A DNA stretch of 64,000 nt. Origin: Thuidium tamariscinum (taxonomy: Eukaryota > Streptophyta > Bryopsida > Hypnales > Thuidiaceae). Below are positions 3,598 through 64,000 of the stretch, one piece after another. The notes beneath the pieces were generated by a model. The model was given only the letters and a program-made list of their open reading frames with translations, searched no databases and was not told where the DNA came from. The DNA is taken from the NCBI GenBank assembly GCA_947034885.2, contig OX344757.2:4712001-4776000 (forward strand). The letters run 5' to 3'. Each line of letters opens with the position of its first letter. Within the stretch, counting starts at the first letter, position 1. A program made the position numbers and the translations under genes.

Positions 3598-4251
3598 TTA
3601 ACCCCTAAATGCCCAAGGCCCTTTTTGAGCTTCTAGGAATTTGCTTTAAAGTGAACAAAAAGTCAACTTTATGATGTACTTTATCAATTTTTTTTGAAAT
3701 GTAACAATACAAATTCAAACTAGACATGTTAGATCATGTAGGAAAAGAAAACATGACAATATCACTTATGGATTGAAACATTATAATGTTTGATCATGAG
3801 GGTATTAAAATTGCAAAAGTGATGTGAAGTCTTTTAATCCTCTTTTCACAAGTCAAATAAAAGAAGTTAGTGACCAAAAAAATATGGTGTGAAAGGGCCT
3901 AACATGCATAACCCTAATCAATTCATGGCTTTTCAAAATCTACTCTACAATTTTCTTAAGCAAATTTCTAATGTGATTTTTTCTCCAAGATTTATTGTAT
4001 TTGAGGCTCATTTCCAAGAGCCCTCAACATTATAGAAAGTCAAGATTGCAATGGGTACCATTGCACAAAATGTTGAATTGAAAAATTATAGTCAATCATT
4101 TTCAAGATTGGATTTTTTAATCCTTAAAGTAGACTTCAAAAAGAATTCTTCAAAAATACAAATGATTAGAAATAGTGACTTAATTAGGTTTTCTTTAACT
4201 TCAAAGTTTTGCAAACACCAAATTTTGGTGCCTTGAGCATTTAGTGATTAA
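3598..4251. mobile_element. TTAA-flanked non-coding element, family 2, copy a
   Basis: 646-bp element (3602-4247) between two TTAA copies (3598-3601, 4248-4251). The left end reads CCCCTAAATGCCCAAGGC; the inverted right end is close to it (AATCACTAAATGCTCAAGGC). A near-palindrome CACCAAATTTTGGTG lies just inside the right end. No ORF with transposase resemblance. It is the reverse of copy b at 10.45-11.11 kb, aligning over its whole length. Confidence 0.75.
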
Positions 4252-5217
4252 AGACATTTCAAAAAATTAAAGTTCTTTGATCTATATACATTTCCAAAAT
4301 TGTGTCAAAGATGTAAAATAAAATGAAATTACAAGAATAACTCAATGATAACTTTCAAACAGTTATAATGATTCAAAGATCATATCAGTATGTCATTAGA
4401 TCCACTAACAAACCATCCATTGCCTTTCAAAAGATTTGAAGTCAATTAGAAATTGAATATTTCAGTGCTTTTCATAAGAATTTTTTTCCTATAATTTCAA
4501 AAATGCCAAATTCTAATCACAATGGGTTTTGAAAAATTCTATCATTTTATCTTTTTTCCAATTCATCTTTGAAGGTTCATTTGATCAATTCTTAAATTAA
4601 AAAGTTACATTTTGACCCCAAACCTATGTATACTTTTAAATTATAGAACATTTGCAAATAAAGTCTTCAAAATTTCTATCACACAATTGTTACATCTATT
4701 AAATTTCAATGGATGAAAAACATATTTTTGAGTGCTTAGAATGTGTTTGTACTCATTTCTTGTGCAAAATGTGAAAGTGAAGTCCTTAAAGAGTTCACAT
4801 TGCCAAAATAAGGGTTTGAAAACTATTTTTGTTACAAAATGTTGTTGGATATTTTGATAGCCAAAACAGGATTCTAGTATCTTGTAATCTATAAGTATTT
4901 TTCACATTATCAACCCCACAAATAAAAAATTGTACATTCTTAAACGAAGATTTTTAGATGAAAAATAATGTAAGAATGACAATTGTTACTATATAATCTC
5001 AATTTTAGCTTGACAGAAAGCCTATACAAAATAAATTCTTTCAAATTCTTTATGAGTTTGCAAAAATTGTGTATGATGAAAGTATAAAGTTTCTTTTTTT
5101 TCCATTATGTGTCCACAAATGTAACTATGTCAATTTCAAAAGTTAGCAAATTTTAGAGTATGTAGAATGTATTTTATATAATTTGGTATAATATTAATAG
5201 ATTGTTGGATTATAAAT
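4252..5217. other. AT-rich intergenic, nothing recognised
   Basis: About 70 percent or more A+T by eye, with no coding resemblance and no repeat ends that I could pair. Confidence 0.5.
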
Positions 5218-5789
5218 TACTACCTCCATCCCAAAATGATCTTCCTATATAACAAAATATTATGGATTAAGGCCAAAAATAACATTTTAAAGTCCCCTTT
5301 GGATTTGTAAGCAAAGTTTGGTTCACTCTTAGTATCTTTGAAACTTTGAGTTTTAAAAGCCTTTTCCAAAGTGTAATTCTAGAATATAGAAAAGTAGAAT
5401 TTTGGAGGCATTTTCAAAAAGCACCAGTAGGCATTTAAATTTTGAATTTGAGGTTGTTATTTTGTGGGTGATTAGTATGGGCCTAAGACCATGTGTGAAC
5501 CTTTGTTCCACCTACCAAAGCTTCACCTCCTTCAAGTAGGCAACACTCAAAGAGATGCAAAAAATACAAACAAAAAGTGTTGATTAACCCCTTTAGTCAT
5601 TTCTTTTGTCTTTTGATTGATGGTTTTATGAATGGAAGGGAAATTATTGCTTAAAGTTTTTTTGCTAGTCTTGGACAAGAATTAAAATCGAAATCTGACA
5701 AATTTTCATATCACAAAAGGAGACAAGAAGATCATTTTGGGAGAAAAAATTAAGGCCAACATGAAGATCATTTTAGGACGGAGGGAGTA
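5218..5789. mobile_element. Stowaway-like (Tc1/mariner) non-autonomous element
   Basis: 568 bp (5220-5787) between TA dinucleotides. Left end CTACCTCCATCCCAAAATGA, right end inverted CTCCCTCCGTCCTAAAATGA, matching the known Stowaway terminal consensus CTCCCTCCGT. Subterminal GATCTTC and ATTAAGGCCAA motifs also occur at both ends in opposite orientation. It is longer than most Stowaway MITEs (100-400 bp). No transposase ORF. Confidence 0.8.
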
Positions 5790-7575
5790 TTATTTTAGAA
5801 ATACTTGAATTTACCTTATATAAGGCCTATATATATTGCATTATTACAATCTCTTTGTGATGAGGAAAACATTGTGAAAGATTCACTCATTAAAAGTTCA
5901 CAGAAGACTTGCTTTATAATAATTAAAAATGCTGTTGTAATACTCTTTTGCCCCAAATTAATTATGTGGTTTTGAAAAACTAGTCACATTAAGCCTTAGA
6001 TTTTGTTAAAAAACAATGGTATCATATATTTATAGTATGTGTTATGGTATTGTATAGTTGCAATATGTATATCATATGCTCTTATATTGTTTCACTTGCC
6101 TCCACACAGTCATTAAACAATCAACATAGAAAACACTTATTCAACTATCAAAATCAAGAAACAAAGTTTTTTAGTAAGATAAATATTTTGCCTACCTTGG
6201 AGGATTTTAGAAGAATAGAGGGAGTACTTTATAATTAAAGGACAAGGATTATCATAATATTAAAAAAATATTATCTCTTATATTGGAGCTCAAAATTCTT
6301 TGAAGTTTGTCTAATTTGTTCGTATTATAATCTTGAGATTGTATAGTTGAATCTTTGAAATAATATATATAGTGTTATAGGATTGAATCTTCTTTTAGAT
6401 CTTACAATTATTTTGATATTTTGTGTACAATTAAACAAAACAATTTTAATTGTACTACTACCCACCTTTATTTAGAGCTGAATAGGAAATTAGTGTGATA
6501 TTTAGGATATTATATATCAATATTAGGCTTAAAAAATACAAAAAGAACCCATTGACAATCCTCAAACTTATTTGGAAAAGATAACGTAAATGTCTATGAA
6601 TAATTTGTAATTCGGAATAATATTAAAAGATTTGGTTTACTTTAGAACATTTCATGGGAAAACCTACTACCATGCATATCTCTTAAACCTACTAGATGTT
6701 AGAGTATTAGTTGCCATTTGGTGAAGTCCCTTGTCGGACATTGTTCTTTTCTTGCATGCCCACTGTTTTGGCCAATTATTCCCCACATGTTTTTGACAAT
6801 GATTATCCTTCTATTGTCCACATGCCCATTCATCTAGTCTATAACATGCTTGTCCTTGCCTATTTTTCTATCTTTCTATTGTACTTCTATAGTCATTTGG
6901 TTGTTCAAAAAACATTGTCTACTTGAGCTTGTTGATGTACAATTGCACAAAGAAGGTATTGCAATCCCTTCTTTCAATTTACAAGAATATCTTCAAATTA
7001 CGCTTATTTTTTTCTTCAATAGCCTTGCCAAAAGAATTCCCAAATAATTTGAACTTTTAAGTACTATATGACCTTTTAATACCTAAGTTTCACAACCAAC
7101 CTTTAAAATTAATTGTTTTATGAAATCTTACTCAACATATGCATTGCATTGTATAGAGCAAAGATGTAATAAAAAGTTGAATCTTTTTGTATTTAGTGAA
7201 ATATTTAGGTGGACTCCTTCTTGGTTGAGTGCATTTGTATGATGGAGAAAAATGACTATTTTGGATTAGAAGAGTCATTATAAACTATGATAGGCACCAT
7301 CATAATTATATTAGATCCAACACTATTAGTGTACCTCGTGCAGTTGCTACAACCAAAATGAAAATAAAGGTAATTTTTAAATTTTTAAACCCTAAACAAC
7401 TCAAAAATCCATAAATTTTGCACCATGAATCACAAAATGCTAAAACTAAGTTTTCACACCCTCCCTTGATGAGAGCTTTCTAGTAGTACTAAAAACACAA
7501 CTTGAAGACACATAATCAAAAAGATCTTCCCGTAACAAACAAGCAAACAAAACAAAACAAAACAAAAAGCATGAC
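5790..7575. other. AT-rich intergenic, nothing firm
   Basis: No gene recognised. A Stowaway-like right end (GAATAGAGGGAGTA) is visible near 6217-6230, but I found no matching left end. Confidence 0.45.
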
Positions 7576-8490
7576 TTAACCCCTAAAGGACCAAATTGCA
7601 TTTTTTGGCAATATAGCGATTTTGGGCAGCTCACTACGGATGGAGTTTTTATTTTTTTCTTTGAAATTTTCACACAACATGTGCCCAAGGAGTATCTACA
7701 ATTTTCATAACTTTTGACTACATGGTCAAAAAGTTATTGCATGATATGTAGTTTTCATTGGTCGGCGGGCAGCCCAAAAACTTCTTATAAAAACATTTCT
7801 TTTTAAATTGATAATTTGAAATTGGTTTTCTAGATGTATATATATGCAAAAATCTTTGAATCATTCCATTTTGATTTACGAGATGAAAGTTATGAGGAGA
7901 TTTAGTTTGCGGGCAGTTATGGATTCTCTACTCTAAAATAAACTTTGGAAGCCTTTACTTTACTCTATTTTAAATTTTTTTTTTTTAAATTAAAATTTTG
8001 GATGTTTATTGTTTGTCACAACATTACAACCATTGGGATTGGCCTTTTTTTGATTCCATAAATAAATTTCTAACAATTTAGTATTTTGAATCACTCTCTA
8101 CTTCTTTCTACTCATTAATTTTTTCCTATATGTTGTACAATTCTAAATGATGTGAATTTTTTTGAGTATGTAGCCAACTTTCCATAAAGAATGAATCCAA
8201 AGAAGCACCACCATTTTGGACATTTTTTCATAGAAATGTGACCTTGTGAAGTGTAGCTGCCCGGTTTTTTGTAGGGACAAAAAAAGGTTTTTTGTCAATT
8301 CAAATGCTAATATCTTGCAATCTACATGGTGGAAATTTCTGAAATTTTTTCCACATATTTTGACATAAGTGTACTAGAAGATCCTATGGTTACCAGTGTC
8401 AAAAAAATTCAAAAATTTGGTGCTTGTAGTAGAAGTAACAGTTTTTGTGTGTTTTTGGTGAAGACATAGTCTTTGACCTTTAGGGGTTAA
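7576..8490 (+). mobile_element. TTAA-flanked non-coding element, family 1, copy A
   Basis: Best intact reference of family 1: 907 bp (7580-8486) between perfect TTAA duplications (7576-7579 and 8487-8490). Left end CCCCTAAAGGACCAAATTGC; the right end inverted reads CCCCTAAAGGTCAAAGAC, so the terminal repeat is about 12 bp and then diverges. Internal landmarks shared by all copies: TGGCAAYATAGCGATTTTGG near the left end, a block about SACTACATGGTCAAAAAGTTATTG, and TAATATCTTGCAATCTACA plus a GGATCYTRYGGTTACA-like block near the right. No ORF over 80 codons and no transposase motif, so it needs a helper in trans. Confidence 0.82.
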
Positions 8491-8689
8491 AGATATGTGG
8501 ATGGATAAACCAAGAATCAATTTATATGAATTATAAGAGACCTATTCAGGATGAGATCCAAAAAAGTCATTTAAATAGAAAATGAACAAATTTGTACCTT
8601 TATAGTAGCTACTTAGTCATGATGCCATTATAACCTCTTGGAAGTCTAATGCAATAGGAAGTTTTGAATACCTAGGCATACCAACATAC

Positions 8690-10452: not shown

Positions 10453-11108
10453 TTAATACCTAAATGCCCAAGGCACCAAAATTTGGTGCTTGCAAAATTT
10501 TTAAGTTAAAGAAAACCTAATCAAGTTTCTATTTTTAGTAATTTGTATTTTTGAAGAATTCTTTTTGAAGTCTACATTAAACACCAAAAACTCGATCTCG
10601 AAAATGATTGCCTATGATTTTTCTATTCAACATTCTGTGTAGTGGTACCCATTGCAATCTTGACTTTCTCTAATGTTGAGGGCTCTTGGAAAAGAGCCTC
10701 AAATACATTAGATCTTGGAGAAAAAATCACATTAGAAATTCACTTTAAAAAAATTGTAGAGTAGATTTTGAAAAGCCATAAATTGATTGGGGTTATGCAT
10801 GTTAAGCCCTTTCACCTCATATTTTTGTGGTCACCACCTTTTTAGATTTGACTTGTGAAAAGAGGATTGAAAGACTTCACATCACTTTTTCAATTTTAAT
10901 ACCTTCATGATCAAACATTATAACCTTTCAATCCATAAGTGATATTGTTGTGTTTTCTTTTCCTAAATGATCTCTAACATGTGTACTTTGAATTTGTACA
11001 ATTACATTTATAAAAAAATTTATAAAGCTCATCATAAAGTTGACTTTTTGTTCACTTTAGAGCAAATTTCTAGAAGCTCAAAATAGGCCTTGGGCATTTA
11101 GGGGTTAA
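10453..11108. mobile_element. TTAA-flanked non-coding element, family 2, copy b
   Basis: 648 bp (10457-11104) between TTAA copies (10453-10456, 11105-11108). Ends: TACCTAAATGCCCAAGGCACC on the left and inverted CCCCTAAATGCCCAAGGCC on the right. It aligns with copy a in reverse orientation across the whole length. The left end carries the GCACCAAAATTTGGTGC near-palindrome. Non-coding. Confidence 0.8.
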
Positions 11109-11449
11109 CTACGTTTTATTTTTGTAAGAAATTGGGCAACACCTTGGCAAGGGCATCTGTCATTTGCAACAGACTGGCACATTCCTGCTACAATGAAAAT
11201 GAAAAATTAAATGGATGAAAAAAATGCAAATCTTCATCCATTATTGTTGATTCGAAATCATCCAAACGCCAATCTTTGGCATTGGAGGATTAAGATTAAG
11301 TAAATTTCAATTAGTGTATATAGGATTGAGTCACAACATTTTCACTAGTGATTCCAATTTAAGGGAGAGTTCCTTTTGTTTAGGCCAATTCTTGTAAGTA
11401 AAAAATCTTGAGATGTTGTTTCAACTTAAAAAAATTTTACTAACAAAAG

Positions 11450-12309
11450 TGAAAGCTTTATTTTGGCTATGTTTTCACGAGAACCGCTCCAAAATTGCCA
11501 TTTCTAATACATGTACCAAAACTTAGAAAAAAGAATATATTTTTTGATACATGTAACCATAGGATCTTGTATTATGCTTGTTTGAAAAGATGTAGAAAAA
11601 ATTTCAGAATTTTCCACAATGTAGATTGTAAGATATTAGCATTTGAATTGACAAAAATCATTCTTAAAGGCAAGTTGGCTACATGCTTAAAAAAATTTCA
11701 AAATCATTCGGAATTGTATAACATATAGGAAAAAAATAGTAAGTAGAAAGAAGTAGAAAATGAACCCAAATACTAAATTGTAAACAATTTATTTATGGAA
11801 TTGAAAAATTCCAATCCCAAATTCCCAATGGTAAAAATGTTTTAATAAACAATGTACACCTAGTGTTTTTATTTGAATCCAATTTTTTTTTAAATTGAAT
11901 TAAATAAAGGATTCAAACTTTTTTTTGTAGTACAAAGATTCTATAACTTGCTATAAACTACTCCAAACTAAAACTCATCATAACTTTTGATTCATTGATC
12001 AAAATGGAATGATTCAAATCTTTCCACTTAGATAAAAATCTAATAAATCAATTTCAATTTTTTATTTTAAGAAAAATGATTATTAAAGAAGTTTTTTTTG
12101 CTGCCCAAACTACTTGCTGAGCAATGAAAACTACATACCTTACAAGAACTTTTTAACTATGTAGTCAAAAGCTATGAAAATTATTGGACCTTGAAGCTAC
12201 TCCTTGGGCACATGTATGAAAGTTTCAAAAAAAAAAAATCTCCATTTGTAGTGAGCTGCCTAAAATTGCTATGTTGCCAAAAAACAAAGCTTGGGCATCT
12301 GGAGATTAA
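11450..12309 (-). mobile_element. Family 1 TTAA element, copy F (reverse, left end decayed)
   Basis: Reverse-orientation copy of the family seen at 7576-8490. Landmarks in inverted order: CATAGGATCTTGTATTATG, then GTAGATTGTAAGATATTAGC, then the CAATxTATTTATGGAATTG block, and finally AGCTGCCTAAAATTGCTATG before the end. The right-hand TTAA is at 12306-12309. The left terminal repeat is no longer recognisable, so the left border is approximate. Confidence 0.65.
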
Positions 12310-12682: not shown

Positions 12683-13011
12683 TAAGGTAGGAGGTTCATA
12701 AAGCAACCATTTAAGGGTTGGAATTGAATTTTCAGGAGGTAAAACATCTTGAAATATTTTTCAGTGAATTTTCCTTGAAAAACAAGTAGAATAGGCATTT
12801 AACCCAAATTATTTCATATTTTTTGGATCTTTTTGAATTAGTTATGAATTTCTGAAGTCAATATGGCATAGGGCTCCAAAACCGCCTACACCCTAAAATG
12901 TACACTGTTTGTACAATCCTGTAAAGATTAAAAAACATCACATACAGATAATCTACATTTTGGAAGGTGGACAGTTTTGGACCCTGGGCAGTTTTCAAGC
13001 CTCCTACCTTA
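12683..13011. mobile_element. TA-flanked MITE, AGGTAGGAGG family, copy 1
   Basis: 325 bp (12685-13009) with perfect 10-bp inverted ends AGGTAGGAGG/CCTCCTACCT and TA at both sides (12683-12684, 13010-13011). A second copy of almost the same length is at 45245-45571, alike through its interior (for instance TTTCCTTGAAARACARGTAGAAT and GGCATAGGGCTC). TA duplication points to a Tc1/mariner-type helper. Non-coding. Confidence 0.75.
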
Positions 13012-16463: not shown

Positions 16464-18127
16464 CTGATGAGAGAGAGAGGAAGTGAGGTGGTTTGATGAA
16501 AGACAGTTGACCACCTGCCAGGCCACTTGTGGCTGGCGGGCTTTGTATTTTTATCCCTGCAATGAATCCTCGGTTCATTTGTGCCAAATAAAATAAAATA
16601 AAAGACAGTTGACCACAGAATTTGAAAATGAGTTCACATCCCAACCAAGGAAACCTGCAGACTGAGAGAATTTGCAACCCAAATCAATTCAAAAGTCAAC
16701 ACAAGAGGTACCATGCCATATTAGAGAGTGGAAGGGAGAGAATATACACAACAAGTCAGCCCCAGTTGAGGTAGCAACGGCTGCATGTTGGAGTACTGGA
16801 CTGGAATAAGGTGGGTACACCTAAAAGCGCCACTTATTTTTACTGTGACTAGTTCCTGTTATCATATTGTTCAGATTTTCATGCAGTCTTGTTGGCAAGT
16901 GAAAGCATGTTCCAATGCACCAAAGAACAGAGGATTTGGATACTGTATGCAAAAGTTATTAATGGTCAAAGTCAGTTTCTGAAAGCGCCATCTACGTCTG
17001 GGTACATGACTGATTTTGAAAATGTATGCACTTTGTAAATGGTGCTTTAAGGTCAGGTGCCATTTTGGGTGTACCTATTTTAGATTTTGACATAATTTCT
17101 TGAAAGATTGAGTTCAAACTCCAATTTGCAAATATAAGTATAAGTATACATGAAGGAATTGGAATGAGAGTTAGTCATGCATTAGTATTTGGAGAAGAAG
17201 GAGAAGGAAGTTTGGGTTGGCTTGGAAACCAACATTTGAGAATCATTAATTTCCATTTTCATGATTTCTTTGGGAGTACTTTAAAAAAAAATTTAAGAAA
17301 TTTAGATTAGATTTGATAGGATTTGACTTTTAAAACATATTTCAAAATAAAATTAAAAATTAAAAAGATAAAGTAAAATCCAAAAAGAAGATAGAAAGAA
17401 AAGAAAGGGCAATTGGAAGGAGAACATGAGAAGAACACACTGTTGCATGAGTGTACCGAATACCACATTTAAATATGAAATCATTGAAATGGAGGTAGCA
17501 TTTGGGCATCCTATGGGCGTGGTCATGATGGAGGTGAGTTTGTGATTTTTTCCCTTCTCTTTCAATATTCCATTAATTCAGTCAAGATAGAATTAGCCAT
17601 TAGTCATTGAAATTCAATTCAAAATCGGATACTTATAACCAATAGGGAATTGCAATTTGAAAGTAGAAGTAGTTAGTAAATTTTATTACTAAGCCTTCCA
17701 GAACAAGATTAAAACCAAAAGCAAATGAAAAAGCAAAATCCATCTTGTCATAATCTTAAGAAAAACTTAGATTTTTGATTGAGAGTAGAAGTAAAAGAGT
17801 AAAAGAAGAAAAGAAAGTTTTAAAGATAAAAGAACTAGTGGGTAAATTTTGATGAACCGTACATCGGTCAAAATTTACTTAAAAATAGTATATCCCAAAG
17901 TTAAGATAACAAATTTAACCCTTATTAAGATAAAAGCCTAAAAGATAAAAATCCAAGTAATTTTAACCAACCTAGGTAAAAGAATTCAACAGATCAAATT
18001 TTGATGAACTAATTAACAATCAAAATTTACCCATAAAAATTCACACTTACCAAGAAGTTGAAGTTGAAGGTTTTCACTTTTATATAAGGATAAAATCAAA
18101 CCTTTTAGGGTGGCATTAATTCTCTTT

Positions 18128-20004
18128 TTAACCCCTAATGAATCAAAGTGCCTTTTTTGGCAACATAACTATCTTGGGCAGGTATATGTGACTAGAAATT
18201 TTCATGTTTCATGACCAAAATTTAATAGAAAGTGTAGACGAGGGATATCTTTAACCCCTAAAGGACCAAACTGCGTTTTTTGGCAACATAGCGATTTTGG
18301 GCAGCTCACTACGGATGGAGTTTTTTTTTTTTTTCATTGAAATTTTCACGCAACATGTGCTTGAGGAGTAGCTTTAAGGCCCAACAATTTTCATAACTTT
18401 TGACTACATGGTCAAAAAGTTATTGCATGATATGTAGTTTTCATTGGTCGGCGGGCAGCCCAAAAATTTCTTATAAAAACTTTTTTTTCAAAATTAAAAA
18501 TTCGAAATTGATTTTCTAGATGTACATGTATGCAGAAAGATTTGAATCACTCCATTTTGATTTATGAGACAAAAGTTATAAAGAGATTTAGTTTGCGGGT
18601 AGTTATGGATTCTCTACTCTAAAATAAACTTTGGAAGCCTTTATTTTCCTCAATTTTAAATATTTTTGAAAAAAAATTAAAAATTTGGATGTTGATTGTT
18701 TGTCACAACATTACAACCATTGGGATTTTCATTTTTCATTTTTATAAATAAATTGTTCACAATTTAGTATTTTCAAACATTTTCTACTTCTTTCTACTTA
18801 CTATTTTTTTCCTATATGTTGCACAATTCCAAATGATATGAAAATTTTCAAGCGTGTAGCCAACTTGAATTGAAGAATTGTTCCAAAGAGTTGCAACCAT
18901 TTTGGACATTTTTTCGTAGAAATGTGACCTTGTGAAGTGCAGCTGCCCGCTTTTTTGCAGGGACAGAAAAAGGGTTTTTGTCAATTCAAATGCTAATATC
19001 TTGCAATCTATATGGTGAAAAATTCTGAAATTTTTTCCACATCTTTTCACACAAGTGTACTATAAGATCCTACGGTTACATGTGTCTGAAAATGTTTTTT
19101 TTCAAAAATTTGGTGCTTGAAGTAGACATGGCAGTTTTGGTGTGTTTTTGGTGAAGACATAGTCTCTAACCTTTAGGGGTTAAAGCCCAATAGTTTTCGT
19201 GACTTTTGGTTGTACGATAAGAAAGTTATTGCATAATATGTTGTTTATTTTTCAACTCCGATAGTTCAAGCAGATTCAAAAAATTAACTTTTTTTGAAGA
19301 AAAAAATTTGTAAACGGTTTTATAGATTTATGTATATGTGGAAAGCTTTGAATCATTCCATTTGGACTAATGAGTCAAAAATTATAAAGAGTTTTAGTTT
19401 GCAAGTAGTTATGGATACTCTACTCTAAAATAAACTTTGAAGTATTTTATTTTACTCAATTTTCAATGTTTTTTGAGAAAAATAAAAACATTGGGTGTGG
19501 ATTTTTTATTACAACATTTGAACCATTGGGAGATTGCAAATTTCAATTCCACAAATAAATTCTTAACAATTTAGTATTTTGAATCATTCTCTACTTCTTT
19601 TTACTTACTATTTTTTCCTATGTGTTGTACAATTTCAAGTGATTTGAAATTTTTCAAGCATGTAGCCAACTTGCCTTGGAGAATGAATCTAAAGAAGCAC
19701 TATCATCTTGGACTTTTTTCATGTAAATGTGAGTTTGTAAAGTGCAGCTCCCTATTTTTTGCAGGGCCAAAAAAAGGATTTTGGTCAATTCAAATGCTCA
19801 TATCTTGTAATCTACAAACTTCTATCTTGTATTTGGTAGAAATTTCTGAAATTTTTTCATCATCTTCTCAAATTAGCATTCTTCAAGATCCTATGGTTAC
19901 ATCTGTCTAAAAACAATATTTTCCAAATATTTGGCATTTGTGTTAGAAATGGCAATTTTGGTGGATTTTTGATGAAAACATAGTCAAAGAACTTCAAGGG
20001 TTAA
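18128..20004 (+). mobile_element. Family 1 TTAA element, copy C, split by nested copy B
   Basis: Outer element: left TTAA 18128-18131 followed by CCCCTAATGAATCAAAGTGCC, right end AACTTCAAGGG then TTAA 20001-20004. It is interrupted at 18251-19183 by another family-1 copy. Removing the inner copy and one TTAA gives about 940 bp collinear with copies A and B (for example GAGGGATATCTTTAAAGCCCA here against GAGTAGCTTTAAGGCCCA in copy B). The right TIR is decayed. Non-coding. Confidence 0.78.
18251..19183 (+). mobile_element. Family 1 TTAA element, copy B, nested in copy C
   Basis: 925 bp (18255-19179) between perfect TTAA copies (18251-18254, 19180-19183). Left end CCCCTAAAGGACCAAACTGC, inverted right end CCCCTAAAGGTTAGAGAC. 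Very similar to copy A along its whole length. It sits in the TTAA that lies 119 bp inside copy C; copy B carries an equivalent TTAA at the same distance (18374-18377). Non-coding. Confidence 0.85.
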
Positions 20005-25180: not shown

Positions 25181-25619
25181 GGATGTTTTTTTGTAGATAA
25201 TTAGTTTGTCTTTTTGTGGAAGTTACTAATGGTTGTTTTGTCCTTTAAAGCTGTGAATCATAGCTTAATTCATGATTGATTCAATTTGTACAAGAGGTAT
25301 TAAGCAAAACTATGAATTTTAGAACCTTATTTGGGATTTAAGCCTAGATGACTCTCCAACTTGAGAATAATTGGTATACCAAATTTCCACATCTAATCTC
25401 ACATTGCATTTTTGTAGTAGAAAGATACAAGAATACATGTCATTGAAGTATATACCCAAATTTTAGGGTGACTATAGGTTCTAAGGCTATGGCAGTTGAA
25501 TGTATTAGTATTCAATTATGCAAGTTTAATAGTTGAGTTGGTCATTCCAAAGTTGTTGATTGCTTAATGAGAAAGTTAAAAAATTTGTCAACTTAAACAC
25601 ATTTGTATGAAAAAAATGT

Positions 25620-26458
25620 TCATGTTCTTAATACTTCAATGGATTCATTCTTCAATTCAAGTCAAGTCAGCTACATGCTTGAAATTTTTTATACATTAGA
25701 AGAAATTTGAAGGCATTACAGGGTTGTTTGGGGTTGTTCCCGAAATGGCTCCCAATGCTGTTGACCGTTGTTAGGCCGACTTTTATAAAAAAAATAAAAA
25801 AAATTGGGTCCTAAAATATGAAAATAAGTCCAGAAAAAAATTTGAAAAAAATAAAATTACGTGGCAGTGTCCCGACCATGTAGGATTCGAGTTCACAGGG
25901 CAGAAACTGTGTTCCCGTAGTCTCTTAATGCCCTCAAATTTCATCTAATGACATTCCGAATTGTACAACATATAGGAAAAAAATCATAAGTAGAAAGAAA
26001 TAGAGAATGATTCAAAATACTAAATTGTTAAGAATTTAGTTTTGAATTTGAAAAATGTCAATCCCAATGGTTGTAATGTAATTAACAATATACATCCAAA
26101 TGAATGTTATTTTTTCAAAAAAATTTGAAATTTAGTTAAATAAAAGACTTCAAAGTTTACTTTAGAGTAGAGATTTTATAAGTGCCTACAAACTAAAACT
26201 CCTCATAACTTTCATCTCATCAATCAAAATAGAATGATCCAAAGCTTTTTGCATATATATAAATTTAAAGAATTAATTTCAAATTTTTGTTCTTAAAAAA
26301 GATATTTTTGAGATTTTCTTGGTCTACCTAAGTTGATAAATAAACAACATATCATCCAATAACTTTTGAACCATATAGTCAAAAGTTATGAAAATTATTG
26401 GATCTTACCTAAAATTTCTGTGTTGTGAAAAAACATAGCTTGGTCCTTTTGGGGTTAA
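25620..26458 (-). mobile_element. Family 1 TTAA element, copy G, split by a MITE
   Basis: Reverse copy: CAGCTACATGCTTGAAATTTT near 25671, GAATTGTACAACATATAGG after the interruption, CTCATAACTTTCATCTCAT, and the end GGTCCTTTTGGGG followed by TTAA (26455-26458). The 5' third is missing or too decayed to see, so the left border is approximate. A 257-bp inverted-end element interrupts it at 25694-25950. Confidence 0.65.
25694..25950. mobile_element. Short inverted-repeat MITE inside copy G
   Basis: Ends are inverted copies of CATTAGAAGAAATTTGARGG, continuing to GGCATTA: 25-bp terminal repeats with very few mismatches. The interior is GC-richer than its surroundings and holds an A-rich middle and GATTCGAGTTCACAGGGC. 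The break falls inside family-1 sequence, so this insertion is younger than copy G. The target duplication is not clear, so the superfamily is unassigned. Confidence 0.6.
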
Positions 26459-29064: not shown

Positions 29065-29409
29065 GAAGGCTTCTTCTGGAGTTGCCTAATTAATTTAGTT
29101 TCATATGAGAAAGCCTCGAAGTTTCAGTTCTCTAAATTCATTTGCTGCACCTGTTACACAATAAGTCTTCATTGTTTGAGCAACAATTAGTCTCCGAAGG
29201 CTTCCTCTGAAGTTGCCAAATTAATTTAGTTTTGAAATGAGAAATGCTTTTGAGTTTCAGTTTCTAGATTCATTTGCAAATGTTCCATAGTAAGTCCTCG
29301 CAATATGCTAAATTAGCCACAGAAGGCTTCCTTTTCAAAGTAACCATATTAAATCAGTTCTTATACGAGAGTTACTTTTGAGTTTCAGTTTCTGAACTCA
29401 TTTGCAATG
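29065..29409. repeat. Three tandem ~128-bp repeats just upstream of the F-box ORF
   Basis: Units start at 29065, 29196 and 29322 (periods 131 and 126; the third is cut short). Each has GAAGGCTTCYTYT, a TAATTTAGTTYT-like block, GAG-AAxGCTTTTGAGTTTCAG and ATTCATTTGCA in order. The last unit runs into the first in-frame ATG of the F-box gene. If the leader intron is real, the array is intronic. Confidence 0.75.
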
Positions 29410-34144: not shown

Positions 34145-34183
34145 CCTTTGGTGATTACCTTTGGTGATTACCTTTGGTGATTA
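34145..34183. repeat. Three perfect 13-bp tandem units
   Basis: CCTTTGGTGATTA repeated three times without mismatch, followed by a partial CCTTTG. Recent slippage inside old repeat DNA. Confidence 0.85.
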
Positions 34184-39993: not shown

Positions 39994-40150
39994 CCAAAAA
40001 ACAAATAGAATGTTCAACCTTAACATGCAAGCTTCAATCTTGATTATAATCCAACTATCTAAAATTTTATAAACCAACACTTGATATTCGCCAACACCAC
40101 AATTACTAAATAAAATCTACAAATATTACTACTCTTCCACTTCTATTTCT

Positions 40151-40693
40151 TCATACCGTATCGAGTTCTTGTCGAATAAATGAATCACACAGAGAAAAAA
40201 TTCTAAACGGTGTCAAATCATCACGTCCACGGAATCCTTCAGGGATTTCAAAACAAAAGCTATCTTCATCAATTCCATGTTCACGAAATTTTCGACAAAT
40301 TTGAAAGTATTGTTTAACATCATTTTTCGATCGGAGAGTTCTTCCATATGGGGATTTGTAATATATGTCAGCAAATCTTGATGCCTTGTTACCTCGAACG
40401 ACAATGCTTTTAGAAAATCCTTTAGGAGGGACAGGATAAGCTGGCCGCAATACTAAAGGTTGTGTATTGGTTGTATATTTTTCATCGTCAAGATCTGCAA
40501 CATCAAAGCAATCAACATTTTTCTGCCATTTTCTTGCCTTCTTACAAACAAACACTTGTTTTTCCATAGATTTGTACAGTTTTATATTTGGTACAATCCG
40601 CCATTTACCACATTGATCACATTGCATTGCGTAAGTTCTCACATTGATTAAATTAAACTGGTTAGCCATATTGATAATTGAAAGCAAGCTCAA
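40151..40693 (-). CDS. CW-zinc-finger/methyl-CpG-binding-domain protein, copy 1
   Basis: 180 residues, single exon. Residues ~22-63 form a CW zinc finger: C25-x2-C28 followed by WRIVP, then C50 and C62, with W31 and W56; this fold typically reads methylated histone H3K4. Residues ~84-151 form an MBD: PPKGFSKSIVVRGN, RFADIYYKSPYGRTLRSK, then DSFCFEIP. This CW-plus-MBD order is that of the plant MBD1/2/4/12 group, whose MBDs generally do not need CpG methylation; nuclear chromatin role inferred. Start is M1 or M9 (MANQF, better conserved with copy 2). It lies in a duplicated segment whose partner is at 51606-52136. Both frames stay open with conserved Zn ligands, suggesting function. No intron, unlike many relatives; flanks are duplicated too, so this pair arose by DNA duplication. 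Confidence 0.85.
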   Translation of the reverse strand: MSLLSIINMANQFNLINVRTYAMQCDQCGKWRIVPNIKLYKSMEKQVFVCKKARKWQKNVDCFDVADLDDEKYTTNTQPLVLRPAYPVPPKGFSKSIVVRGNKASRFADIYYKSPYGRTLRSKNDVKQYFQICRKFREHGIDEDSFCFEIPEGFRGRDDLTPFRIFSLCDSFIRQELDTV

Positions 40694-40804
40694 GACACCA
40701 AGTTGAAATCATAAACTTTAGTATGAAAAATATGAAGTATTTAGATGAAAAAAAATATAAAACCAATACTAAGGAAATTATTAAGTGTGTTGCATTCATG
40801 CTCC

Positions 40805-41792: not shown

Positions 41793-42710
41793 TTAATCCC
41801 TCAAGGACGAAAGGGACATAATGTGACTTTTTTAAATTTTTATGGCAAATTCTTAGTAGGGTGAAATAAACTTTAATATTTTGTGAACTAGGATCTTACA
41901 AAGCAACAACTTTACATACTTGTTTCATTTTCTGATTTTTAAATTTGAATGTCAGAAGTATTAAAAATTTTATTTAGGAAATATAGTCTAATAGAAAAAA
42001 GAAAGTGTAGTGTTTTTCCAATGAAAGTAGCAAATATGGAAAAGAAAACATTTTTTTGGACACTTCCTGTCTTTATACTACATAAGAAAACAAGATTTGG
42101 AAAAAACAAATTCAAAATTTTATTTTTATAAATTTAAAAAAAAAAAGTTTGATCTAGTGTGATTAGACACACAATACAATATAGTTAGAATAATTCCAAA
42201 TTTTTTAAAGATGCTCTAAACAATATAATAATACCATTTGTTAAATTTTAAAAATTTACATATATCTTAAATTTTAAAAATCTTGTAAATCCAATTTGGT
42301 CAATTTTGGCTTTCTACTCCTTTTGTTTGAAAATGAATACAAACTTGAGAGAATTTCTTACTTTTCAAATTTTTCAATAAAAGAATACTAAATTTTTTTA
42401 GACTCCAAGGCAATTTTTTTTGAAGGGTGGGGGAGGGGGGTTGCAAAAAGAATTATTCATCTTTTATAATTTTTTTCTCCAAAATCTTTGTTTTTTGCCT
42501 ATGAAGCTGATCATCCAAAAATTTTGTAATCTAGAAATCCAACGGCCAAAATTTTCCACAATTAATTCTATGTATACTAGACAAAGTAATCTTTGCTTCT
42601 GTACAATTCAAATTAAAAATTTCAAGCATATGTATGTGCAAAAAAAATCAAAGTGGCACAATTCATTGAAATCTTTTTTGTCAAAAAGTCATTGGGCCTT
42701 GAGGGGTCAA
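41793..42710 (-). mobile_element. Family 1-related TTAA element, copy J
   Basis: About 910 bp (41797-42706). Left TTAA then TCCCTCAAGGACG; right end GGGCCTTGAGGGG then TCAA (one-base-changed TTAA). Terminal repeats (CCCTCAAGG/CCTTGAGGG) pair well. The interior is much diverged but keeps TAGGATCTTACAA near the left, as in reverse copies of family 1. An open frame at 42420-42899 overlaps it and has no recognisable domain. Confidence 0.6.
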
Positions 42711-44069: not shown

Positions 44070-44803
44070 TTAGCCCTTAAAGCCCTAAGTTGCGTTTTTT
44101 TGGCAACATAGCGATTTTGGGCCACTCACTACGAATGGAGTTTTTATTTTTCTTCTTTGAAATTTTGACACAACATGTGTCCAAGAAGTAGCTTCAAGGC
44201 CCAGAAATTTTCATAACTTTTGATTACACAATTAAGAAGTTATGGCATGATATGTTATTTTGTTTGAACGTGGGGCAGCTCAGGCAGCAAAAAAAACTTC
44301 TTTAAAAAAACCTTTTTTAAAAAGTGAAATTTCAAATTGATTCTTTAGGTTTATACAAACATGGAATGCTTCAAATCATTCCATGTGGATTAAGGAGTCA
44401 AAAGTTATGAGGAATTTTAGTTTGCAAGTAGGGATGGAGTCTTTGAAAACCATACCTACTTGCAAACTAAAATTCCTCATAACTTTTGACTCCTTAATCC
44501 AAATGGAATGATTCAAAGCTTACCATGTTTTTATAAACCTAAATAATCAATTTGGAATTTCACTTTTAAAAAAAAGTTTTTTTTTTTTGCCTAGGCTGCC
44601 CCACGTTCAAACAAAACAACATATCATGTTATAACTTCTTAACCGTGTAATCAAAAATTATGAAAATTGTTGGGCCTTGAAGCTACTCCTTAGACACATG
44701 TTGTTTAAAAATTTCAAATAAAAAAAATAAAAAATCCATTCATAGTGAGCTGCCCAAAATCGCTATGTTTCCAAAAAACACTGCTCAGTGCTTTAGGGGT
44801 TAA
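44070..44803. mobile_element. Foldback TTAA element, family 1, copy E
   Basis: Two inverted copies of the left part of family 1: arms 44074-44437 (364 bp) and 44450-44799 (350 bp), loop of 12 bases. Both arm ends have GGCAACATAGCGATTTTGGGC-like sequence. Outer flanks TTAG (44070-44073, decayed TTAA) and TTAA (44800-44803). The right half of the family (GGATCCTATGG block) is missing. A transcript would fold into a very long hairpin. Confidence 0.85.
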
Positions 44804-47150: not shown

Positions 47151-48161
47151 TTGGTAACCCTTCAACATCCAAAGGTATCCAAAGGTTTCAAAAGTGTCTT
47201 CACATAGTCTAAAAGTCCAATTTGAAGTGATGTAAATTTATGCATCCAATGTCCAAATTCATTAAAACTTCTTGGAAAATTTGCAATCTTGTTTATACTT
47301 TGTGAGGTAAAATTTTCAAATCAATCCAAGATGTATTGATTTCTTGAAAGCCATTTGAAGTTTGACAATGGTTTAATTTGAGTTCACCAAACTACAATTT
47401 GATGGTTTAACTTTGGGGGCTTGTATCTTCTTCATAAGATGTTTTTTTTCATTAAAATTTATTGTATTATACTTCCCTTAAAGTCTAGCTATTGCTGTAA
47501 AAATTTCATGTCAATTCAAGTTGTTTTGAATGTTTGGAAGTAGTTTAAAGTTCAAAATCTAGACATTTTTGGATCACAAGGAACTTTGGTAGCTTGTTTC
47601 TTCTTCATACTAAGTGTTTGATTCCAAAAACTAAATTTTGAAAAACTTGTGCATACTAGTCTTGTTTGTGTAAGTTAAATTCAATATCAATCCAAGAAGT
47701 TATCAATGACTAATCCCTAAATGCCTTAGGCACCAAAATTTGGTATTTGCAAAACTTTGAAGTCAAATAAATCCTAACCAAGTTGCTATTTTAAATAGTT
47801 TATATTTATGAAAATTTATTTTTGAAGTCTAGTTTTAGCATAAAAAATCCAATTTTGAAAATGATTGATTGTGATTTTTCTATTTTGTCGAAGATTCAAG
47901 ATTTCATGCAAGGGTGTCCATTGCAATCTTGACTTTTTGTAGTCTTGAAGGCACTTGGAAATGAACCTCAAATATACTAAATCTTAGAAAAGAAACACAT
48001 TAAAAATTCAATTACAAAGTTATAAAATAGATTTTGAGAAGCCATAAATTGAATGGAATTATGTATGTTTGGCCTTTTAACCTCATATTTTCCAGGTGGT
48101 CAACTTTTTAGATATGACTTGTCAAAAGAGGATCCAAAGACTTCAACTCACTTTTTTCTAT

Positions 48162-50541
48162 TTTTTTTTCTACATTTCATTTTCTAGTATATGTCACAAG
48201 ATTGACACCTGAAAGAATCCTAAAGCACACCTACCTATTTGTTGAGAAAAGAAGTGGTCAAAAAATTGAAGTTGTAAAAAGGAGATGACATAAAATAGGA
48301 TGTTTTTTTTATGGTGCTTAGATTCTAATATCCACATGGCATACTAAAGACACATAGATAACTCCTTCAGCCAAAAAATCCCATCCTTGTATTTGTAATC
48401 ATTAGAAATTCAATCACATGGATGAATTTATATATTTTTCTCATTAATAGATTTAGTTTCTTTTATATTTATCTGTTTTTTCACTTCATTGATAATAAGG
48501 TAGCAACACCCATAAAAATCACTATCCTCATGGACGTGCCCTATACTTATATTCATGTCTGATGTTTTTTTATCTTATGTTATTAAACTAATAAACAATG
48601 AAAGTGAAAGGGGAACAAAGTAGTATTCATGCATGTCTATCGCTGCCATTTAAGGATCTGTAGAGGATGAAATGGGGATGGTTAACAAAATCATTGATGA
48701 AGTGTATTAGGTGTATGGAAATTATACATATATGGAGTGTAGGGATGCCATAGCTTTTTTTCACATCCTATACAGGCTACACAAGCATTTGCTACACATA
48801 CTTATGACTCTTTCAAAACTCTATAATAAACATCCTCTACTAACGTGTTTACAACTATGGCAATTGTATTGTTTGGAAAACCATTATACTTCTTGTTGAC
48901 TACAGAGTCTCCATTGATCCACTCTATATTTTTCTTTGCCTATTTCCTATTGATCATCATTTTCCTATGAATAATTTCTATATCTATAGACCCTTATCTT
49001 CAATGTAATGGATGCTTCTCAACCGTTTTTTTCTGGCACATGAGGCGAGATTACACCATTTCAAAATAAATGTCTTTTCTTTCGCTAGATAGAAGCAATA
49101 TTTTTTCTCCAAAATTGCCAAATTTGGATGAAAAAGTGTATGAATTTGATGGAAAAGTGTTTCTAAGTCCAAAAGACAGATGAATGTAGAAATACAATGC
49201 TTCACCAAATTTGAAATGATGGCCATATTGGCACTTTCTCAAAAAGTAAAAAAAAAGGGTTGGTGCGGCTACTTTAGGCAACAATTTGCCTTAACCAAGA
49301 GCATTGGAATACAGGTTTGTATCAAACAGGCATTTCTGAAATTATGGTTCAAATTTGGTCAAATCAAAAGACCACATGTGATAGTAATTAACCCCTGAAC
49401 GTCACAACGGCTGTTTTTTGGATGTTCAAAATCTAAATAACCTGTTGATCAAATATTATGATGTCAATATCCACACAGTGGATTTTTTTTAAAATTGCAC
49501 ATTCACATTCATCAAGTAGCTGGCTCCAAAATTTAACAATGAAATCCTCAATAAACAAAGCAATTTCAAATTATTCCAATTTTCCCAGAAAAGCTCCTTA
49601 CTTCCGGTATTCATCTTGTGACTATATGTTTAGGGGTTAAGTACAAGGATAAGCAACATAGAAGCAAGATAACAACTAAAGATACACTAAACAAATGGAT
49701 GCAGAGGTACATTAAAATATGGCACTTCTTTTATAAGCCCAATGTAATCAAAGTTACTTTGTTGAACTGGCTGCTTACAACCTTGATGATGGTACAATCA
49801 TTCTGGCAAATACAATAGAGTATTACAAAAACAGTCAAATAATGTAGACTAGGGAGTCCTCTACAAAATTTTGTCCTCTACAAATCCTTAAACTACACCA
49901 CTTACATTCACTTATTTGTCTCAACTGGTTCAGTTGTTGTGCAAGCAATATGGTATCATCTTAGTCTACTTCTGATGCTTCTCAAGTTCTGATGTGCTTC
50001 AGGTTTTTTGTGCATGTAATTTTGTATCTATGATTTTCCATGTGATGGCAATAACGAGCATCTTTTGGTTGAATACACCTAGTGTATCTTCTCTAACATC
50101 CAATTTGTTGTGTTGTTTTTGGAATGGGCACATGTGAGGCCTAAGACCTTGCAAAGTATATTGGATATTTTTAAACACCTAAGGCCTCTTATTTACTCTT
50201 ATTACTCTTATTTGATATTCATATGATAGAGGGTTTTATCTTATAATTACTAAATGATGACTTTAATGGTTCTTCATATCTCTATAAATACTAGCTTTTG
50301 TACTGTGACACTTTTGAAAAACATATTGTGAACAATGTAATACATAGTACAATTAAGAATGCATGTCATTGGCTATGTATAATCTTACTTTTATGCCTCC
50401 ACAGGAGAGATGCTAAGTTAATATCTAGTATAGACTAAGATTATAAACTTATACTTGTAACACACAAAGTTTTGAAATTGGAGAAGATTAGATAAGTGCC
50501 TAGTAATATGGGATGTTCCAAAAAAGAGATTTTTTTTCTAC
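48162..50541. mobile_element. 2.36-kb unclassified insertion in family 2 copy c
   Basis: Foreign DNA 48174-50529 bounded by the direct repeat TTTTTTTTCTAC (48162-48173, 50530-50541), which looks like a 12-bp target duplication, though it is T-rich and so weak evidence. No terminal inverted repeat, LTR or coding domain recognised. It carries a small TTAA element at 49392-49636. Confidence 0.45.
49388..49640. mobile_element. Short TTAA-flanked element (245 bp)
   Basis: 49392-49636 between perfect TTAA copies. Ends CCCCTGAACGTCACAACGG and inverted CCCCTAAACATATAGTCAC. The smallest element of this type here; interior unrelated to families 1-3. Confidence 0.65.
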
Positions 50542-51605
50542 TATTGCAGTATTAATACCCTCATCATCAAACATTATAATCTTTCAATCCATAAGTGATA
50601 TTGTGATGTTTTTCTTTCGTAAGTGATTTCTACCATGTCCAATTTGAATTTGTATAATTATGTTTTTAAAAATTTGATAAAGCTTATCATAATGTTGACT
50701 TTTTGTCCAATTTAGAACAAATCCCTAGAAGCTCAAGAACAACCTTTGGCACTTATGGACTAAGAAGCATTTTGTAAAAGGAAATTGAATCATAGATGTG
50801 TTTCTACAACTTTGTATACTACTTAAAAAAATTTCAAAGTCATTTTGCAACTACAATAAGTCAATTGAATGATATTTTCTTTCACCAATGTGCTTGTATT
50901 TTAGTTTTGAAGAACTTTATAATATAAAGCTTTTTCATTTGAAGAAGTTTAGAAATCACATTCACCTTCAAATAAATTTCAAGGAGATTTTTAGCATCCA
51001 TTTTTAACATATAAACATTATAATCTTACAATCAACTTGGCCAAATGACTCTAAATTTGATTGGCATCATTTGTAACATATACACTACAATAGTGATTTT
51101 TTTTCTCTCTTTATTTTGAAGTTAATAATATTTTCTTAAGGAAATTTAACAAAAATATAGAATTAATTTACTAAGAATTATATAAAAGTGGACATATAAA
51201 AATTGCAACATTTTAATAATGACCATAACCATTATTTAGTTATTTGATATTTTTACAAATAAAAGTAAGAGAATAGATGATTACAAATCTATATATTTGT
51301 ATACATCTTTTTATTACATTTATAGAAACCAATGAATCCTTCTACACATGCAAGTTCAAATAGAATGTACTCTTCAAGATTACCATACATTTATTCACTA
51401 TATGGATTTGAAAATATCTCATATTTCCAATAAACAAATGTAATGTTCAACTTGCACATGCAAGCTTGAATTTTGATTATAATCCAACTACCAAAATTGG
51501 TTTAGGTAGCAACACTTGATTATGTACCAACACCATAATTACTCAATAAAATCTACAAATATTATTTCTCCTCCACTTTGGCAACTTTTCATATTCTTTA
51601 GTTGC

Positions 51606-52136
51606 TCATGACAAATACATGAGCCGGCCACATAAACTATAGATTCTATATGGCATCAAATCATCATGTTTATAGAATTCACAAGGAATCTCAAAACTAA
51701 AGCTGTCTTTATCAACTCCCCGTTCATGAAATTTTCTACAAACTCCCAAGTATTGTTGAACATCTTTCTTGGATCGAAGAGTTTTCCCATAACGTGGTTT
51801 GTAATAAATGTCAGCAAATCTTGACGCCTTGTTACCTCGAATGACAACACTTTTAGAAAATCCTTTAGGAGGAACAGGATAAGCTGGCCGCAATACTAAA
51901 GGTTGTGTATTGGCAGTATATTTTTCATCGTCAAGATCTGCAACAGTAAGGCAACTGATATTGTTTTGCCATTTTTTAGCCTTCTCACACACAAACACTT
52001 GTCTTTCCATAGATTTGTACAATTTTTCATTTGGTACAATCCTCCATTTATCGCATTGATTGCATTGCATTGCATAAGTTCTCACAGTGATTAAATTAAA
52101 CTGGTTAGCCATATTGCTAATTGAAAGCAAACTCAA
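51606..52136 (-). CDS. CW-zinc-finger/methyl-CpG-binding-domain protein, copy 2
   Basis: 176 residues, single exon, collinear with the protein at 40151-40693. CW ligands kept: C25, C28, C50, C62, with W31 and W56. The MBD is kept as PPKGFSKSVVIRGN, RFADIYYKPRYGKTLRSK and SFSFEIP. Differences concentrate after residue ~130 and in the tail, which is shorter and unrelated at the last residues. Role as for copy 1: nuclear chromatin reader of the MBD1/2/4/12 type by family; the exact ligand is unknown. The two copies share promoter sequence, so overlapping expression is likely; this is inference. Start could be M1 or M9. Confidence 0.85.
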   Translation of the reverse strand: MSLLSISNMANQFNLITVRTYAMQCNQCDKWRIVPNEKLYKSMERQVFVCEKAKKWQNNISCLTVADLDDEKYTANTQPLVLRPAYPVPPKGFSKSVVIRGNKASRFADIYYKPRYGKTLRSKKDVQQYLGVCRKFHERGVDKDSFSFEIPCEFYKHDDLMPYRIYSLCGRLMYLS

Positions 52137-52248
52137 GAAACCCAGTAGAGATAATCTTGAATATAAAAAATATGAAGTATCTAGATGAAAAAATACACTA
52201 CTATTAAGGAAATGATTAAGAATGCCATATTCACGTCTTGATGTTTCC

Positions 52249-52256
52249 TTTATATA
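52249..52256 (-). promoter_or_regulatory. TATA box of CW-MBD copy 2
   Basis: TATATAAA on the minus strand, 113 bp upstream of the first ATG, in the same sequence context as in copy 1. Confidence 0.5.
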
Positions 52257-52260
52257 TCTG

Positions 52261-52396
52261 ATATTCTTGTAAATAAAATAAAAGCCACATAAAATAAAAG
52301 TCTCATTGAGTAAAACTCACATATATGTCTAATATTCTTGTAAATAAAATAAAAGGCACATAAAATAAAAGTCTCATTAAGTAAGACTCACATAAA
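52261..52396. repeat. 71-bp tandem duplication upstream of CW-MBD copy 2
   Basis: ATATTCTTGTAAATAAAATAAAAG starts both units, ending around GTAARACTCACATA. Directly upstream of the TATA box, so in the proximal promoter. Confidence 0.8.
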
Positions 52397-62959: not shown

Positions 62960-63004
62960 GGTGGGTGGGTGGGTGGGGGTGGGGGTGGGGGTGGGGTGGG
63001 GGGT
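62960..63004 (+). repeat. G-rich tract with quadruplex potential
   Basis: GGGT and GGGGGT units in a row, at least eight runs of three or more G on the plus strand. Four runs with 1-base loops suffice for a G-quadruplex. Confidence 0.85.
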
Positions 63005-63341
63005 AAAACACATGGAGAATTACCATTGAAAGAGGAAGTTCTTTGGGTGTTTGTCTCTGTACAAACTTGGAAATGGAGAGATATGTATTAGATAACCTTT
63101 GAGCCGTAGTAGCGGCAAGAAGGTCATCAACATAACCGGTTGTTCATTTTCAATCAGAACCTTTGATCTTCATGATCTAAGGGTTTAGGAAGCAAGTTGA
63201 AAGGAAAGAAGGTTATGAGTTACAACTTGTGATGGTGATGGTGATGGGCAGCCCATGGTAAAGAGCCACGTTAGCGTTGAAAAATCAACAACCGGTTATG
63301 AAATTTGACTCAACTAGCCAGGATGGTTGCCTTTTTCTTTT

Positions 63342-63447
63342 TTTGGCTACATGTTATATTGTAGAACTCGAAAACTGATGTTTTAATGTATTTTTTTGGC
63401 TACATGTTGTATTGTAGAACTCCAGAATTGATGTTTTTTATTTTTAT
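63342..63447. repeat. 53-bp tandem duplication
   Basis: TTGGCTACATGTTRTATTGTAGAACTC and a following AxxTGATGTTTT block occur twice with period 53. Confidence 0.8.
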
Positions 63448-63832
63448 TTTTTTGGCATTGAGACCCATTCTTTAGAATAGTTCTCCATTCCAAGGTCAGA
63501 AAGTATGGGTTTGTCATCTGGAGGAAGTTTTGTCAAACAAGACCACGTGAGAGACGCGTTCCAAAACATTCCATGGGTGGAGTCTATCTGGTTTGCAAAA
63601 CTCAAGTTTGATTCAATGCATTGAGAAGCTACCGAGACATTCCTGAAAAGGTGGTACTAATCTTTTTTTTCAAACTACAAAAAAAACCTTGGATGAAATC
63701 TTGCATCAAAGTTTTTTTGTCTAGGTGAGTGTTCTAAAATCATTTCTTTCACATAGGTATCTATTGATTTTAGAGATGTACCCAAAATAATGATGGCAAT
63801 TTTGGGTCAATGGTGCATTTGGGGGGTCTACC

Positions 63833-64000
63833 TTAACCCCTCACCGCCCAAGAGGACCAAAAGTGTCCATGGAGTCAGACTCAAAGTGTTGTAACTTTTG
63901 CATCCAATGTCCAAATTCATTGAAACTTGTTGGAAAAGTTGCGCATTCTAATCTAGTTCTTATAGAATAAATTTCAAATCAATATAAGACATATTGAGTT
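63833..64000 (-). mobile_element. Family 3 TTAA element, copy c (cut by the window end)
   Basis: TTAA (63833-63836) then CCCCTCACCGCCCAAGAGG, followed by TTGCATCCAATGTCCAAATTC and TTGGAAAAGTTGCGCAT, matching the reverse of 32226-33295 and the left part of 47158. The rest lies outside the window. Confidence 0.7.

Follow-up and report, generated by a model that had tools for sequence, protein, structure and literature searches.

PiggyBac, from a family of transposons known mainly in animals, is a widely used gene-delivery tool that comes from an insect, and a study of corals reportedly describes piggyBac-related miniature inverted-repeat transposable elements (MITEs) in animals, non-coding and flanked by TTAA. 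Here, we analyze TTAA-flanked elements with CCC-type ends in a window of 64,000 nucleotides (the whole stretch of DNA under study, positions 4,712,001-4,776,000 of contig C9) from a genome of 363.2 Mb in 19 contigs, the host of which is likely a moss. These elements are very probably non-autonomous piggyBac MITEs, which would be moved by piggyBac-type DDD transposases of full elements located elsewhere in the genome.

According to a 2008 grapevine paper, only five other superfamilies had been described in plants to date (PMC2528002), and a 2025 survey that covers 207 plant genomes, including four from bryophytes, assigns MITEs to five superfamilies and Micron, with piggyBac and TTAA absent from its main text (PMC12550479). 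Other sources speak against novelty: a 2023 review counts PiggyBac among seven angiosperm MITE superfamilies (PMC10004981), a 2024 review includes it among plant superfamilies (PMC10794571), isolation of piggyBac from insects, fungi and plants has been stated (PMC10813416), the Ceratopteris genome table contains 1,230 PiggyBac matches covering 122 kb (PMC6890710), and one PiggyBac match of 75 bp is given for Stipa (PMC8319324). For mosses, a term search of three genome papers yielded no piggyBac element (PMC11704416, PMC6723128, PMC9946827), and in a fourth only the word piggybacking appeared (PMC10619864). For the Arctic moss Ptychostomum knowltonii, a share of 29% terminal-inverted-repeat transposons is reported, with CACTA as the largest part (PMC11704416); that some of these may be piggyBac is our guess. 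No such elements in moss were found described in open-access titles and the beginnings of abstracts; subscription papers, supplements and Repbase were outside this search, so that a prior description may exist.

Counting both strands, the window contains 18 instances of the motif TTAACCC[CT]T, whereas 100 first-order Markov resamples contain 1.72 on average and never more than 7. When TTAA was swapped for three other tetramers before the same motif, 2, 1 and 0 occurrences were found, and TTAACCCCTAAA occurs nine times in the window and not once in the resamples. The first-pass annotation, made from the letters of the window, had listed about fifteen elements at TTAA or a one-base variant of it, at 15 positions. 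Twelve of these positions (3598, 7576, 10453, 11450, 18128, 18251, 25620, 39063, 44070, 47154, 47710 and 63833; left ends eroded at 11450 and 25620) lie inside repeats that recur in a comparison sample of 20 loci of 10 kb each (L013-L032, ~200 kb, picked for holding a transposase; L013 and L032 share a 4 kb overlap); for 41793-42710 and 49388-49640, which have no match in this sample, the ends converge and sit at TTAA or one base off it. The fifteenth, starting at 32222, did not stand: the end motif is present, no partner end was found, and a copy of family D begins at 32387. With this exception, the observation of the repeats in the window is confirmed. The earlier grouping into three longer families and one short type is close to the one obtained here, namely A (~655 bp), B (~930 bp) with its relative B2, and D (~913 bp), plus the single elements C and E, which are recognized solely by their ends; CCC-type ends and TTAA are common to A, C, D and E as well as to B and B2. 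The window indeed appears to hold no transposase, as had been noted: 19 transposase sequences compared by tblastn gave 0 matches at E 1e-3, and all 19 matched a control locus. An Rfam scan of the window returned nothing at gathering scores.

PiggyBac-type transposases are found in the rest of the genome. A search with PF13843, the profile of the piggyBac-type catalytic domain DDE_Tnp_1_7, gave 659 first-look candidates in the genome, 116 of which were scored; all 116 are above the curated cut-off (best E 6e-80), some with stops, and the open frames of the scored transposases span 408-1,214 amino acids (aa). Two proteins compared by phmmer match piggyBat (9c0f; E 1e-27 and 1e-26) and piggyBac (6x67; E 1e-22 and 2e-22), and PF13843 is the main match in a Pfam scan of nine transposases. 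Pairwise identity among 19 transposase frames from the fetched loci is 30-100%; some of these frames are truncated. Of the 19, 17 contain GVDxxD and 14 DNxx[TS]S, and a Cys-rich tail is recognized by pattern in 15. The Asp-bearing motifs, which in piggyBac hold the catalytic residues, align to those of piggyBac and piggyBat. PF13843 had no match in 14 control genomes, those named being bacteria and archaea and hence uninformative on plants, and viral contigs searched with one transposase showed no relative.

Among the 20 loci, 18 have the gene enclosed by convergent TTAA-CCC ends, paired by eye, with element sizes of ~5-8 kb; of the remaining two, L015 has a single end of this kind and L022 is ambiguous. 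Three families were seen twice among these loci, L014/L020 (7,958 columns, 99.5%), L018/L019 (5,616, 99.6%) and L023/L024 (5,096, 99.96%). The L023 family, 5,096 bp long, has 11 genomic copies and a 1,023-aa frame without stops. Ten copies score 269.4 bits against PF13843 and one scores 269.6, and a search with the upstream core described below returns the same 11 places at 100% identity; the full-length comparison covers two of the 11. All 22 junctions read TTAA and all flanks are different (nine copies by junction pieces, two within 10-kb loci). The presence of 11 near-identical copies suggests that this family probably moved recently.

Families B and B2 match the end regions of two transposase-bearing elements, with the middle unmatched. 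The B copy 18251-19183 matches the termini of the L027 element with its first 208 bp (E 2e-27) and its last 377 bp (E 3e-12), and the B2 copy 39063-39994 matches those of the L021 element over its first 305 bp (E 2e-40) and over 138 bp ending 3 bases from the right end (E 1e-17); another B copy, 7576-8490, matches one L027 terminus and, with a stretch that stops 81 bases short of the end of this copy, a region near the other. The ends were also compared over the 100 bp that follow TTAA, with single shuffles as the null and the best of 32 ends as the reported score, so that small excesses mean little. By this measure, L027 gives 39-43 with the B left end and with the right half of a B fold-back (200 shuffles reach 13-14 at most), and L021 gives 36 and 50 with the B2 ends (shuffle maximum 17 and 15). 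The proposal that TTAA together with CCC ends marks piggyBac MITEs is supported by the piggyBac-type transposases found between the same kind of ends, and the autonomous partner that the first-pass annotation suggested seeking elsewhere in the genome was found. The assignment to piggyBac is well supported for B and B2, and for A, C, D and E it is likely, judging from their ends and TTAA.

We consider it improbable that L021 and L027 are themselves B2 and B MITEs that later came to carry a piggyBac gene, such that the shared ends would result from nesting. Nesting does occur, as in L032, where a transposase-bearing element (2597-8089) lies inside a B2 copy (2104-8524). However, no inner TTAA-CCC end pair surrounds the transposase in L021 or L027 by exact pattern, in the one copy of each that was read, and the likeness to the MITEs ends at 305 and 138-140 bp (B2 vs. 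L021) and at 208 and 373-377 bp (B vs. L027), with the rest of the elements unmatched.

The same ends are numerous across the genome. TTAACCCCTAAAGG occurs 4,286 + 4,240 times (reversed letters, 0 + 2); among 100 listed places of this sequence, 18 convergent pairs lie less than 2 kb apart, and 16 of these 18 span 915-939 bp, as B and B2 do in the window. The B-type end CCCCTAAAGGACC occurs 2,742 + 2,611 = 5,353 times (reversed, 0 + 3) and is directly preceded by TTAA in 2,453 + 2,327 = 4,780 cases (89%), and the A end TTAACCCCTAAATGCCC occurs 769 + 729 times (reversed, 0). Together with the 22 TTAA junctions of the young L023 family, these counts agree with the TTAA duplication that had been proposed for checking across the genome. 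A longer duplication outside, with TTAA as part of the element, was considered and rejected, given that in the 11 young copies the letters past TTAA are not the same on the left as on the right.

Empty sites were sought by taking 92 convergent pairs, the majority of which are false pairings, joining their flanks with one TTAA and searching the window and L013-L032. Seven insertions (window 18251-19183, L014 127-8062, L023 3139-8234, L026 1521-7101, L028 1977-6872, L032 2597-8089 and L032 2104-8524; five transposase-bearing elements and two MITE boundaries) have a relative whose sequence crosses the junction without a gap and with one TTAA-like tetramer; for window 18251-19183, this tetramer is TTAA in two of three relatives. 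Some of the relatives have gaps close by; a further candidate, L022 1612-8272 compared with L031, has gaps near the junction and was excluded from the count. A copy of A nested in D is flanked by CTAA on either side, as read from the letters, where the related D copy in L022 has TTGA. No other case distinguishes a duplication of four bases from one of two, and this one appears to speak for four.

Several observations weigh against the assignment of the window elements to piggyBac. The right ends of B reach best scores of 19 and 21 in the 100-bp test, against L021 and not L027 (shuffle maximum 18 and 14); against the partner L027, they score 14-15, no better than shuffles, although the longer comparison does find a match. 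Family A matches one end of L021 weakly (134 columns, 61%, E 2e-4) and none of five other elements, D has 38 bp at 82% with one L026 end, a short L029 match and no match to four others, and C and E score at most a few points above the shuffle maximum. Long terminal similarity at both ends ties only B and B2 to transposase-bearing elements, and even there the kinship appears to concern the end regions. Among the seven empty sites, exact TTAA in a relative was found for only one; the other six are one or two bases off TTAA in the best relative (TTCA, CTAA, TTCA, TTGA, CTAT, TTGA), the relatives being diverged. At a TTAA target, moreover, a TTAA duplication and a TA duplication with ACCC ends give identical letters, so that the length of the duplication rests on the single CTAA/CTAA case and on the transposase. 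Finally, transposition and excision activity are what we infer from the sequences.

The weak or short likeness of A, C, D and E to piggyBac elements would also be expected if the MITEs came from another superfamily that uses TTAA, such as Sola3 or Kolobok, and the piggyBac genes of this genome were unrelated to them. We give this origin little chance, slightly less than that of nesting, because the similarity of B and B2 to piggyBac elements covers 138-377 bp in either end region and the other window families share CCC-type ends and TTAA with them; the transposase search behind this judgment covered the piggyBac type. Least probable of all is that the duplication is TA or TTA, with ends longer by one or two bases and the elements belonging to Tc1/mariner or PIF/Harbinger MITEs: the letters at a TTAA target fit a TA reading equally and the right flank of B2 is TAAC, but the transposases between such ends are of the piggyBac type (in loci chosen for that), the nested A insertion has CTAA on both sides, and TTAA precedes 89% of the B-type ends.

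If the window elements are piggyBac MITEs, their movement can be outlined from what is known of piggyBac biochemistry. The transposase would bind the element ends, cut the element out seamlessly and join it to TTAA, with the four bases being duplicated. Internal deletion or the capture of ends would give rise to MITEs, which would then spread in trans, and the autonomous family of 11 near-identical copies would have been mobile in the recent past.

A second conserved coding region lies upstream of the transposase. Fourteen upstream frames from transposase loci share a core of ~107 residues, and the profile of these 14 sequences finds the core in 19 of the 20 loci, all but L021, including L025 and L029, both outside its building set. 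Nucleotide differences in the core at codon positions 1, 2 and 3 number 566, 384 and 1,035 (16 non-independent pairs with at least 58% aa identity), a pattern indicative of a conserved protein. A genome search with a single core protein gave 148 matches among 150 scored candidates. A core lies upstream of 58 of the 116 scored transposases, on the same strand and within 6 kb (gap 1,241-3,880), compared with 0 in each of three strand/side controls. Counted from the side of the core, 58 of the 148 matches, and 36 of the best 59, are linked to a scored transposase; the remaining 90 may belong to unscored transposases or stand alone. In Pfam (10 of the 14 frames) and NCBIfam (14 cores), nothing matches the core, and the core profile gave three matches up to E 1 in PDB, the best of which (0.007, to an ion channel) was taken as chance. 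The frames of core and transposase are offset by one base in seven of the eight elements compared (L023, L019, L028, L031, L027, L030, L032 and L014); they overlap in some elements, and in L014 they are 2.3 kb apart. Splicing, frameshifting or separate proteins may underlie this arrangement.

The first-pass annotation had assumed a seed plant, and this assumption is wrong. The plastid contig, C19, carries rbcL followed by tRNA-Arg(CCG) and accD, and two of its genes are named by NCBIfam as light-independent protochlorophyllide reductase subunits B and N, that is, chlB and chlN. A bacterial-type rpoA of 357 aa is located on the nuclear contig C2, and a PF01000 search found no rpoA on C19. Flowering plants have lost chlB and chlN, and in most mosses rpoA has relocated to the nucleus. 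Thus, the combination of chlB and chlN on the plastid contig, together with tRNA-Arg(CCG), and a nuclear rpoA fits a moss; with the genome size also taken into account, the host is likely a land plant of this group and not a seed plant.

Family A is represented in the window by 3598-4251 (plus strand, 654 bp, TTAA at both ends), recognized by its ends and by copies in L015 and L013 at 80-81% (the L013 copy is the same genomic copy as in L032); by 10453-11108 (minus strand, 656 bp, with inverted ends of 22 bp and TTAA on either side), recognized by its ends and recurrent copies; and by 47710-50763 (minus strand), the copy nested in D, which is itself interrupted at ~48156-50539. Family D comprises 32387-33299 (minus strand, 913 bp, TTAA at both ends, with relatives in L022, L016, L026 and L015); the copy interrupted by this A insertion, 47154 to ~51100 (plus strand, right end approximate), the joined halves of which align with D 32387-33299 over 838 columns at 74%; and 63833-64000 (plus strand), a left end cut by the end of the window, which matches L022, L015, L026 and L016 and whose first 100 bp reach a score of 22 with the L029 element end (at most 13 in 200 single shuffles).

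Among the copies of family B, 7576-8490 (plus strand, 915 bp, TTAA at both ends) matches one L027 terminus with its first 197 bp, and its part 472-834 matches near the other end. The copy ~11446-12309 (minus strand; left end eroded and start approximate, TTAA at 12306-12309) aligns through 11658-12309 with L017 996-1645 at 78%. At 18128-20004 (plus strand), a B copy with L017 matches on either side of the insertion hosts the nested copy 18251-19183 (plus strand, 933 bp), which sits at TTAA; the gap-free empty site of the latter is in related B copies. The copy 25598-26458 (minus strand), recognized by its ends and recurrent copies, is interrupted at ~25693-25935 and has an intact right TTAA and an eroded left end. 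A fold-back of B at 44070-44803, with no strand assigned, contains one B end twice in inverted orientation, with arms of 215 and 134 nt, and is flanked by TTAG on its left side and by TTAA on its right; both halves match the same L017 stretch and the same L027 terminus. The B2 copy 39063-39994 (plus strand, 932 bp) has TTAA on its left side, and the L032 copy of B2 is the one split by a transposase-bearing element. Element C, 41793-42710 (plus strand, 918 bp), has similar inverted ends with TTAA on the left and TCAA on the right, and the short element E, 49388-49640 (plus strand, 253 bp), has TTAA at both ends.

Other repeats and genes are present in the window. A different repeat of ~300-330 bp lies at ~12683-13011 and from 45243, the first copy ending in TAAGGTAGGAGG and CCTCCTACCTTA; its relatives stand directly beside piggyBac-type element ends in L018 and L029 and are also found in L020 and L026. 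The stretch 5218-5789 has inverted 27-bp ends, TACTACCTCCATCCCAAAATGATCTTC, that are 89% complementary, and we take it to resemble a Stowaway (mariner) MITE. A repeat of ~290 bp at 16797-17101 has copies at 81-85% in five of the 20 fetched loci, and one at 33568-34305 is common to L025, L027 and L024 at 68-79%. Two similar frames on the minus strand, 40151-40708 and 51606-52316, each contain a CW zinc finger and a methyl-CpG-binding domain, and frames at 29353-31645 have an F-box match, with kelch-like matches below the curated cut-off.

On balance, we think that this likely moss probably harbors a diverse piggyBac lineage that has spread in recent times, is the source of a major class of its MITEs and is built unlike animal piggyBac, the upstream coding region being a helper protein or a spliced N-terminal domain; we hold this broader picture less firmly than the assignment of the window elements. 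The surprise is in the scale and freshness in a land plant and in the added conserved region, and not in a new mechanism. With more than 100 scored transposase matches and thousands of MITE ends, plant repeat annotations may misfile a whole superfamily. The element with 11 nearly identical intact copies is a candidate native plant piggyBac, and the conserved upstream region raises a testable question on how these transposases are built.

Compared with piggyBac (PDB 6x67, 6x68) and piggyBat (PDB 9c0f), the moss elements are alike in the PF13843 catalytic domain and in the sequence over it, and they share with piggyBac the TTAA target and CCC ends. They differ from both in their land-plant host, their size of ~5-8 kb and the upstream core, present in 19 of 20 loci; animal piggyBac elements are not known to have such a core. 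The MITEs of the plant superfamilies Stowaway, Tourist, hAT, Mutator and CACTA resemble the moss MITEs in being short, non-autonomous and high-copy with inverted ends, but differ in transposase, target and ends. In contrast to the piggyBac MITEs of animals, those of the moss are found in a plant, where a single genome contains several families and thousands of exact ends.

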